Shown here: positions 38,876 through 41,025 of the stretch, in pieces | Numbering within the stretch: position 1 is the stretch's first letter | Layout: each line of letters starts with the position of its first letter | Origin: Fimbriimonadaceae bacterium | GTDB taxonomy: Bacteria; Armatimonadota; Fimbriimonadia; Fimbriimonadales; Fimbriimonadaceae | Length of the DNA: 64,000 nt | NCBI GenBank assembly: GCA_019638675.1 | Contig: JAHBTE010000001.1 | Coordinates: forward strand, 2,140,605-2,204,604 | Reading direction: 5' to 3' | Notes under the pieces: model-generated | Database searches by the model: none | What the model saw: the letters and a program-made list of their open reading frames with translations, nothing else | What the model was told of the DNA's origin: nothing | Made by a program: the position numbers and the translations under genes

Positions 38876-39349
38876 TCACTCTGGTGCGTCGGGGACGAAG
38901 ATCGTCCACCAATCGCTCGGGTCTTCGACGAGTTCGGAATCTACGGGTGAACTCAAAATCGCTTCCCAAGTAGATTCAAACTCGGCTTCGTCGCGGATGA
39001 TCCGGTCGTAACACTCGGTGTAGAACGGGGGCCACCGCTCCTGGGTCTTTTTGATGATCGCGCTTCCGGCTTGGCGTTTGGCTTTTTCGATCACGTCCGT
39101 GAGTTCGTATGGCGAGCCGTCGGGCGATTCGTTGACCGTGAAGATCATCTCAGTTTTTTCGGGCAATACGCACAGGATGTGGTAGTCGAACTTGCGCCTC
39201 TGCGCACGCATCAACCGCTGGAACAGCAGGTTCATCTCCGCGTCTTCCAGCGGGCGCTTATGGCGGAAGGTGGCGTAATACTGGACTCCATCCGCCCGCC
39301 AGTGCGGCAAGCGTCCTCGCCAGATCGAGAAGTTCTGCCACTTAGCCAA
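38876..39349 (-). CDS. RAYT-like (IS200/REP-associated) transposase family protein without HUH histidines
   Basis: The 157-residue protein aligns by eye with REP-associated tyrosine transposases. It has YYATFRHKRPL at the start, the helix-turn around LMRAQRRKFDYHILCVLPE, and CYDRIIRDEAEF with the C-terminal EDPSDWW. In active members the strand reads PxHVHLL. Here it is PEKTEMIF, so both HUH histidines are replaced (Lys65, Glu67). The Tyr114 in CYDRIIRDE is retained. It should not cut DNA by the standard mechanism, so a domesticated binding protein is possible. The start is TTG. REP-like palindromes lie 32 bp upstream and around nrdB. Confidence 0.75.
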   Translation of the reverse strand: MAKWQNFSIWRGRLPHWRADGVQYYATFRHKRPLEDAEMNLLFQRLMRAQRRKFDYHILCVLPEKTEMIFTVNESPDGSPYELTDVIEKAKRQAGSAIIKKTQERWPPFYTECYDRIIRDEAEFESTWEAILSSPVDSELVEDPSDWWTIFVPDAPE

Positions 39350-39381
39350 ACTTATTTTTCCAAGAATATTTTAGCAAGTCA

Positions 39382-39418
39382 ACCCCTCCCTTCATCCCTC
39401 CCCAGGCTTGGGGAGGGA
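39382..39418 (+). repeat. REP-like palindrome copy 1
   Basis: The element is ACCCCTCCC, a 5 nt spacer, then a 9 bp stem CCCTCCCCA / TGGGGAGGG (39396-39404, 39409-39417) with loop GGCT. It lies 32 bp upstream of the RAYT-like gene and just after the nrdB stop. Three more copies are at 40789-40973. Confidence 0.7.
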
Positions 39419-39426
39419 AACTAAAT

Positions 39427-40515
39427 TTACAACTCGTCGTCATCAACTGCGTTCAAAGCCGATGACTTTTGATATTCCGTCACCCGGCCTTCAAAGAAGT
39501 TCTTTTCCTTCTTAATGTCCATCATTTCGGCGAGCCAAGGCAGAGGGTTGGCGATGCCAGGGTTCATGGCGGGCAGACCACAGCCTTCGAGCCGGCGATC
39601 AGCGATGTAATCGATGTACTGCATGAACTCTTCGGCGCTCAGTCCGACTGCGGCAACCGGAAGGCAGTCGCGGATGAATTCTTTTTCGAGGTTCACCGCT
39701 TCCTTCATCGTGTTCACCAGTTCCAGTTTGAATTCGCTCGTCCAGATATCGGGGTTCTCATCCACGAGTTCCATGAGCAGTTGGCGGAACAGTTCGATGT
39801 GATTGCTTTCGTCGCGCAAGGTGTAGCTGAACATCTGCCCGATGCCCGGGAACTTGCCCTGGCGGTACAGGCTGAGAACCATGCCGAATAGGCCGTAGAA
39901 CTGGGTGCCTTCCATGCACTGGCCGAACATAAAGATGTTGCGAGCGAGCAACTGCTTGTTTTCGGTTTTGGTAAGGTCAATATCGCGCCGCATGCTCTGG
40001 CTGATGCGGGTGACGAATTCGTTTTTGCGCTTGATGGTGGGAACATCTTCGAACATCGCTTCGCATTCGTGCGGATTAATGCCTAGGCTGGAAATCATGT
40101 AAAGCAGGCTGTCGGCGTGGATATTTTCTTCGTGTGCGTGGCGTCCAAGCACCAATTTGAGTTCGCTGGCGGTCACGTTTTCGCGAACAACGTGCAAGAT
40201 GTTGTCGCCGACGATTCCCTCCGCCGCGCTGAAGTAGCCAATCGCCATGCGGATGACCCAGCGGTCAACGTCGCTGAGGTCGTTATCGCTACGCCACTGT
40301 TCGATGTCGCGCTGCATAGGGATGTCTTCTGGCTCCCAGTGGTTGGCCTTCATCGTCCGGTAAAGCGTGTACGCCCAGGTGTATTTGAGCGGCAGAAGGT
40401 TGAACGTCATGGTTTCGCGACCGTTGATGACGGACTTTGCGACTTGCGCGGCTTCTGCTTTTTCTCGGTCGAGGGTGAACGACCTTTCGCCTACTTTAAT
40501 TTGAATCGTATCCAT
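39427..40515 (-). CDS. nrdB: Ribonucleotide reductase beta subunit, tyrosine-less (class Ic-like)
   Basis: The 362-residue protein is a class I R2. Its six metal ligands are visible: Glu99 (SAAEGIVGDN), Glu130 and His133 (EENIHADS), Glu202 (CMEGTQF), and Glu236 and His239 (RDESNHIE). Their spacing matches the chlamydial enzyme as I recall it. The position of the radical tyrosine, four residues after His133, is Leu137. A glutamate rather than aspartate is the first ligand, as in class Ic. This predicts a Mn/Fe-type cofactor rather than a tyrosyl radical. nrdA is not in the window. The gene is bracketed by REP-like palindromes. Confidence 0.93.
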   Translation of the reverse strand: MDTIQIKVGERSFTLDREKAEAAQVAKSVINGRETMTFNLLPLKYTWAYTLYRTMKANHWEPEDIPMQRDIEQWRSDNDLSDVDRWVIRMAIGYFSAAEGIVGDNILHVVRENVTASELKLVLGRHAHEENIHADSLLYMISSLGINPHECEAMFEDVPTIKRKNEFVTRISQSMRRDIDLTKTENKQLLARNIFMFGQCMEGTQFYGLFGMVLSLYRQGKFPGIGQMFSYTLRDESNHIELFRQLLMELVDENPDIWTSEFKLELVNTMKEAVNLEKEFIRDCLPVAAVGLSAEEFMQYIDYIADRRLEGCGLPAMNPGIANPLPWLAEMMDIKKEKNFFEGRVTEYQKSSALNAVDDDEL

Positions 40516-40652
40516 TCGATGATTTCCCAGAGTGAACCTGTTTTGCGCCCCAGTAGACGCTTGTCTATATTACCCACTCGTTATCGCTGTATTTCTACAT
40601 GACTCCGACTATTGCTCTTGTATTCTTCCCGCTACAAGATGTGGGGTTGATA

Positions 40653-40674
40653 GCATGTTCAGGTTACAACATGC
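40653..40674. promoter_or_regulatory. 7 bp inverted repeat upstream of nrdB
   Basis: GCATGTT (40653-40659) and AACATGC (40668-40674) are perfect arms around 8 nt, 138 bp before the nrdB start. It does not match the NrdR box consensus well, so another regulator or a structural role is possible. Confidence 0.3.
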
Positions 40675-40788
40675 GGAGTTCCAGACGAGCCGAAATCGCC
40701 GTTTGATTCTTGCTTTTTGCGGGATGATTCTCACCGCTTTTCCACCCGGTAAAAGTAACAGGGTAATGAATGTTTGAGGAGGAATATT

Positions 40789-40824
40789 AACCCCTCCCAA
40801 CCCTCCCCAGTATTGGGGAGGGAA
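40789..40824 (+). repeat. REP-like palindrome copy 2
   Basis: AACCCCTCCCAA is followed by the stem CCCTCCCCA / TGGGGAGGG (40801-40809, 40814-40822) with loop GTAT. It has the same layout as copy 1. Confidence 0.7.
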
Positions 40825-40873
40825 TCCAGTGTCAAAGCTGCCTCATTTTTTGAAAAGTTTAGGTACAGCAATT

Positions 40874-40911
40874 TCTCCTCCCAAGTTTGGGAGGAGATCA
40901 AGAGGAGGGTT
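40874..40911 (-). repeat. REP-like palindrome copy 3, reverse orientation
   Basis: An 11 bp stem (40874-40884, 40887-40897) is followed by AGGAGGGTT, which is the AACCCTCCT head on the other strand. It therefore faces copies 2 and 4, as in paired REP elements. Confidence 0.65.
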
Positions 40912-40936
40912 GTTTAAGGAGAAGTATTTTAGGATT

Positions 40937-40973
40937 AACCCCACCCTGCCCTCCCCAAACTATTGGGGAGGGA
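40937..40973 (+). repeat. REP-like palindrome copy 4
   Basis: AACCCCACCCTG is followed by the stem CCCTCCCCAA / TTGGGGAGGG (40949-40958, 40963-40972) with loop ACTA. It ends 53 bp downstream of the glnA stop. Confidence 0.7.
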
Positions 40974-41025
40974 GTCTATAAGCAGAGGTCTCGGGTGGCA
41001 CTGGTTTTAACCAGTGGGTTGTAGT

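Follow-up and report, generated by a model that had tools for sequence, protein, structure and literature searches.

A RAYT descendant without catalytic residues, vertically inherited and conserved in the Fimbriimonadaceae, and a separate family of REP-like palindromes beside it

REP-associated tyrosine transposases (RAYTs) have been called domesticated transposases, and their benefit to the host is a standing question. The class 2 RAYT/TnpA-REP proteins comprise E. coli TnpA-REP (PDB 4er8), Bertels groups 1-5 and Quentin subclasses 2.1-2.8. The roles of the histidine pair (HUH), the tyrosine and the metal-ligand asparagine in RAYTs have been described, and the main RAYT survey excluded sequences lacking HUH and Tyr as non-functional (PMC6006769). 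In E. coli TnpA-REP, residues E100, H101 and R104 contact the GTAG guide (PMC6006769; PMC8266576). The TnpA proteins of IS200/IS605 (IS608, ISDra2) are mobile and catalytic and carry a Y---Q motif. Conversion of a transposon nuclease into a binder has a precedent in TldR, nuclease-dead descendants of TnpB which are RNA-guided transcription factors (PMC13418256). A RAYT family devoid of catalysis was not found described in the literature searched, which covered the minority of subscription journals and no preprints.

In this study, we analyzed a RAYT-derived gene and the palindromes around it in a stretch of 64,000 nucleotides (the window) from an armatimonadotal genome of 2.85 Mb in 3 contigs (G000). 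The genus set consisted of eight genomes, G000 to G007. The features of the locus are listed in Table 1.

Table 1. Features at the locus; positions refer to the window.
Feature	Position	Strand	Description
RAYT-derived protein gene, 157 aa	38876..39349	minus	ORF in which the catalytic HUH, Tyr and Asn are replaced
REP-like element 1	39381..39418	minus	hairpin CCCTCCCCA-N4-TGGGGAGGG, tail GGGAGGGGTTG; plus strand reads AACCCC; stem 39396-39417
nrdB, ribonucleotide reductase small subunit	39427..40515	minus	name from the original prediction; sequence consistent; context only
REP-like element 2	40789..40823	minus	design as element 1; stem 40801-40822
REP-like element 3	40875..40912	plus	CTCCTCCC stem variant, tail GAGGAGGGTTG; stem 40875-40896; opposite orientation
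REP-like element 4	40937..40973	minus	longer loop; stem 40949-40972
Palindrome of another class (GGGTGGCACTGGTTTTAACCAGTG)	40993..41018	.	class found 65 bp from catalytic RAYT no. 1

The focal ORF starts with TTG, and its near-identical orthologue in G004 with ATG. Against the NCBIfam model REP_Tyr_transpos (NF047646) the protein scored 39 bits (6e-10), which is below the family cut-off of 80, and the model was recognised in 45 of 60 orthologues at 0.001. No Pfam family was matched by the focal protein, the cut-off of PF01797 included. PADLOC gave no match for a defence function, and a match to the phage tail-completion family TIGR01635 was taken as chance (20 bits, under the cut-off, 2 of 60 orthologues). 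In the alignment, VMPDHVHLL of the HUH RAYTs corresponds to VLPEKTEMI in the focal protein, the HxH strand being PEKTE, and Y-I-x-x-N-P-V corresponds to A-I-L-S-S-P-V. Both histidines are replaced, the catalytic Tyr is A130 and the metal-ligand Asn is S134, so that all four catalytic positions are lost. The original prediction, that the protein aligns with RAYTs and that the PxHVHLL strand reads PEKTEMIF, is thus borne out by the NF047646 score, the alignment and a 4er8-like fold; it understated the losses, since these extend to the catalytic Tyr and the metal-ligand Asn. Because these two are also missing, the exchanges K65H/E67H alone would not rebuild the active site. HxH is absent from all 60 aligned orthologues, anywhere in the sequence, and therefore no other alignment rescues the HUH pair; a pair in another register was rejected on the same ground. 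Tyr at position 130 was found in 0 of the 60 orthologues, while position 134 is mostly Ser and Pro135 is often retained.

An AlphaFold2 model calculated with 60 orthologues reached a pLDDT of 88 and a pTM of 0.81, with low confidence for residues 1-17. Its top solved match in Foldseek was 4er8, which is TnpA-REP with a REP hairpin (E 6e-7; Z 14.3 across 136 residues), followed by the chain of an IS608 transposase with 10.4; tRNA-His guanylyltransferases reached 9.6. Since the margin in Z over the common fold is moderate, the RAYT assignment rests on sequence and fold jointly. Conservation was ranked by entropy across 153 sites. The former catalytic positions 65 and 130 drift freely and occupy ranks 136 and 137 of 153. 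Residues D115, R116 and R119, the guide-pocket equivalents, whose counterparts in the alignment with E. coli TnpA-REP are E100, H101 and R104, are nearly invariant (ranks 15, 28 and 12), as is the basic helix residue K91. The PHWRA segment holds ranks 3-7, and F7, W10 and P15-A19 are invariant in the orthologues. Elsewhere in the guide region, W94 and Q95 of TnpA-REP are substituted by F109 and Y110. The orthologues have a median pI of 5.5 and a net charge of -4, compared to 9.0 and +3 in the HUH relatives; the charge is split between the core alone (+2) and the C-terminal part (-7). Residues 6-19 (NFxIWRGRLPHWRA) form the most conserved segment and lie largely in the low-confidence part of the model, which looks as if they might become ordered on a ligand or partner.

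The focal gene was present in all eight genomes of the genus (identity 74-97%), and 80 of 85 Fimbriimonadaceae genomes yielded an orthologue, the five others being incomplete assemblies. Among family genomes of at least 90% completeness it was found in 70 of 70, spanning all 32 genera represented there. When 291 genomes of the phylum were searched, full-length family members scored 177-257 bits and everything else at most 99 bits. The top-scoring hits outside the family were HUH proteins, as far as they were read, and the additional weak matches in a few family genomes were HUH relatives or fragments. In the tree, the 29 tested family members grouped in a single clade with support of 100/100; its stem branch is long (1.59), and HUH relatives stand beside it. 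The nearest row was an HUH protein of the same family (L113), the placement of which is weak (82/59), and the two catalytic RAYTs of G000 stand on branches distant from the focal gene. HxH was kept in all 20 sampled HUH-type relatives (L213-L232). The focal gene is a single-copy core gene of the Fimbriimonadaceae, vertically inherited and of one origin. Apart from this clade, a related RAYT within the family (L112, in G033) has the motif DHVQV, with one HUH histidine lost and the Tyr kept; its sequence possibly reflects an independent loss of activity.

For three close pairs of genomes, the remaining pairs being saturated at synonymous sites, dN/dS was 0.040 (G000/G004), 0.018 (G001/G002) and 0.043 (G053/G054). 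The gene is under purifying selection. Two divergent members are located in genomes of 1.5 Mb, and therefore the gene outlasted genome reduction. Loss of all catalytic residues is the usual ground for calling such sequences non-functional (PMC6006769), and the gene could accordingly be read as a decaying pseudogene or the functionless remnant of a dead transposon. This reading has a negligible probability in view of dN/dS values of 0.02-0.04, the occurrence in all good genomes from 32 genera and a frame that is open in all listed orthologues except for a single-stop read-through in two; it was rejected on dN/dS and universality. The focal protein thus descends from a RAYT, has lost catalysis, is vertically inherited and is conserved across the family. 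Fold, phylogeny, the loss of four catalytic positions, the family-wide occurrence and purifying selection strongly support the non-catalytic RAYT descendant that had been proposed; its proposed DNA binding is plausible only, the guide contacts being conserved and the protein being acidic.

Four palindromes of the same design, the first located 32 bp from the gene, had been reported at this locus. All four are present, with element 3 reversed, and the distance of 32 bp is that between the focal start codon and the beginning of the AACCCC head of element 1. The design is a 9-bp stem, CCCTCCCCA-N4-TGGGGAGGG, followed by N2-5 GGG N GGGG TTG. In the window the hairpin pattern occurred 2 times versus 0 in 100 shuffles. 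Genome-wide, G000 has 28 exact sites versus 0 for a reversed-letter control, so the palindromes are not confined to this locus; with relaxed criteria about 44 copies were counted, in clusters and in both orientations, and the CTCCTCCC variant of element 3 recurs elsewhere in G000. REPs and REPINs are short extragenic palindromes, dispersed in many copies and often paired in alternating orientation, and the elements of G000 agree with this description. GTAG or CGTC was found at none of the stem feet, which read GGGNGGGGTTG on one side. The four palindromes are genuine members of a dispersed repeat family and not a product of chance. Stem arm and tail match a four-tract G-quadruplex pattern, as a pattern match only, in 18 of the 28 G000 copies read (e.g., 39381-39418). 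A sub-type with loop-closing CGAAGATCG occurs three times, in both orientations, within a stretch of 600 bp (L240, G000:C1:2540472-2541052). The four-element set is adjoined by a fifth palindrome, CACTGGTTTTAACCAGTG (40999-41016), with GGGTGG beside it and 7 exact copies genome-wide.

Following the original prediction of a non-catalytic, DNA-binding RAYT beside palindromes that bracket nrdB, the protein could bind the neighboring CCCTCCCC palindromes, perhaps with a regulatory effect on nrdB. These palindromes are specific and occur throughout the genome, one is found upstream of the gene in the window at a distance of 32 bp, and in G003 two are located directly downstream, all of which fits such a binder. 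However, gene and palindromes occur apart in the congeners. The strict sites in G000 to G007 number 28, 40, 48, 19, 35, 0, 0 and 3, so that G005 and G006 have the gene and zero palindromes, while the 48 and 19 palindromes of G002 and G003 occur in genomes in which no intact Y1 transposase was found. The palindromes adjoin the gene in only two genomes of the genus, G000 and G003, and in the flanks of 57-59 orthologues CCCTCCCC palindromes are not near the gene in nearly all other genera. The HUH relatives are flanked by hairpins of other sequence, many of them with a GTA(G) foot, and hairpins on both sides of the gene were found in 12 of 20 HUH relatives versus 0 of 59 orthologues. The bracketing of nrdB does not indicate a meaningful link either, as nrdB neighbors the focal gene only in G000-G004, i.e., five genomes of one genus; downstream of the gene lies dnaK in G005, and other genera have varied neighbors. 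By clustering of neighbors no constant neighbor was found; some, such as DnaK and a P-II-like protein, are shared by subsets only. Binding of the CCCTCCCC palindromes with an effect on nrdB is therefore improbable. After counting both in eight congeners and inspecting the flanks of 57-59 orthologues, we rejected the palindromes as general partners of the gene, and a functional linkage to nrdB was rejected because it is confined to one genus group. The CCCTCCCC palindromes form a repeat family of their own and adjoin the gene in G000 and one congener by chance. Several kinds of palindromes occur in the flanks of the focal gene within the genus, and they may reflect only short intergenic spaces. 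In G004 about 2.3 kb that are absent from the window genome lie between nrdB and the focal gene (L054:3727-5952), holding a PIN-domain-like ORF of 439 aa and a decayed copy of the N-terminus of the focal gene.

Catalytic RAYTs were found in G000, G001 and G004, and the focal gene alone was recovered from G002, G003, G005 and G006. A Y1 profile gave a consistent picture: its matches stayed below the threshold in G002 and G006, G003 and G005 had no match, and G007 had a short fragment. A pairing of the CCCTCCCC design with the focal gene finds no support here either, as each catalytic RAYT of G000 has a different palindrome of its own. RAYT no. 1 of G000 has a CACTGGTT..AACCAGTG palindrome directly beside it, RAYT no. 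2 a CCCTACC..GGTAGGG palindrome, and the same holds for both in G004. The CCCTCCCC elements are at least 1.5 kb from the catalytic RAYTs of G000, by which they may be mobilised. The class CCCTACC..GGTAGGG(GCAC) (L234, L236, L239, L054 near 6580) was seen beside RAYT no. 2, and in G004 it recurs downstream of the focal gene at about 90 bp. The focal protein could also be a trans-acting antagonist or modulator of catalytic RAYTs in the same genome, either as a dead dimer partner or as a competitor for REPs. Y1 transposases work as dimers (PMC6006769), and most family genomes also have HUH RAYTs (45 of 85 over the cut-off); yet the gene is retained in genomes that yielded no catalytic RAYT (G002, G003, G005, G006 and others), and those of G000 are on distant branches, which makes this role very unlikely.

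The gene is kept in every good family genome despite the catalytic loss, and therefore the protein probably has another job, most likely DNA or RNA binding. We favor, with a probability of roughly 0.55, an ancient domesticated non-catalytic RAYT which lost catalysis once and acts by binding a folded single strand. The whole DNA-cutting apparatus would have been lost once, at or before the base of the Fimbriimonadaceae, followed by vertical single-copy inheritance, and the protein would work through binding and not through cutting. The old guide-tetranucleotide pocket (D115, R116, R119) would form the contact surface together with the invariant N-terminal PHWRA, the ligand would be a folded single strand of DNA or RNA, and such structures would be regulated or protected by the protein. 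By analogy, and more tentatively, the guide pocket may have become specialised for sensing or regulating folded single strands while catalysis was discarded. The main argument against binding of nucleic acids is the acidic pI. Further points are the changes of W94 to F and Q95 to Y in the guide region, the lack of a constant neighbor hinting at function, and the invariant N-terminal segment, for which a protein ligand could be equally possible. Alternatively, the RAYT scaffold would be kept as a protein-protein module without nucleic-acid binding, and the N-terminal NFxIWRGRLPHWRAD would dock on a partner. The acidic pI with a strongly acidic C-terminal part would suit such a module, and so would the low model confidence at the invariant residues 6-17, as expected for a segment ordering on a partner. 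It is nevertheless doubtful, because the equivalents of the guide-DNA contacts D115, R116 and R119 as well as K91 are nearly invariant and PHW was inherited from HUH relatives, whose protein handles DNA.

In a clade that is universal in its family and strongly selected, the binding role of a RAYT is separated from its cutting role, and therefore a test of the host function would not be confounded by transposition. If the more tentative reading of the guide pocket as a sensor or regulator is true, the protein would be the RAYT counterpart of nuclease-dead, exapted TnpB. The likeness to TldR is a precedent by analogy only, since TldR belongs to an unrelated protein family and is RNA-guided, and no RNA guiding was seen for the focal gene. 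With IS200/IS605 TnpA the focal protein has the superfamily fold in common (Z about 9-10), but the focal gene is not mobile. Class 2 RAYT/TnpA-REP proteins share with it the same fold (Z 14.3) and order of secondary structures, the guide-contact residues D/E100, R/H101 and R104, and single-copy vertical inheritance; the focal protein differs by lacking HUH, Tyr and the metal-ligand Asn, by being acidic instead of basic and by having no flanking REP pairs. Closest by profile (up to 99 bits) and tree are the LPHWE-type HUH RAYTs of Armatimonadota (e.g., L213-L217), which resemble Quentin subclass 2.7 by motif ([ND]HVH, WQ, YI[LR][NQ]NP). They share LPHW and ESYDRIVRD with the focal protein, but unlike the focal gene they have retained HxH, Tyr and Asn, and REP hairpins footed by GTA(G) lie next to them.
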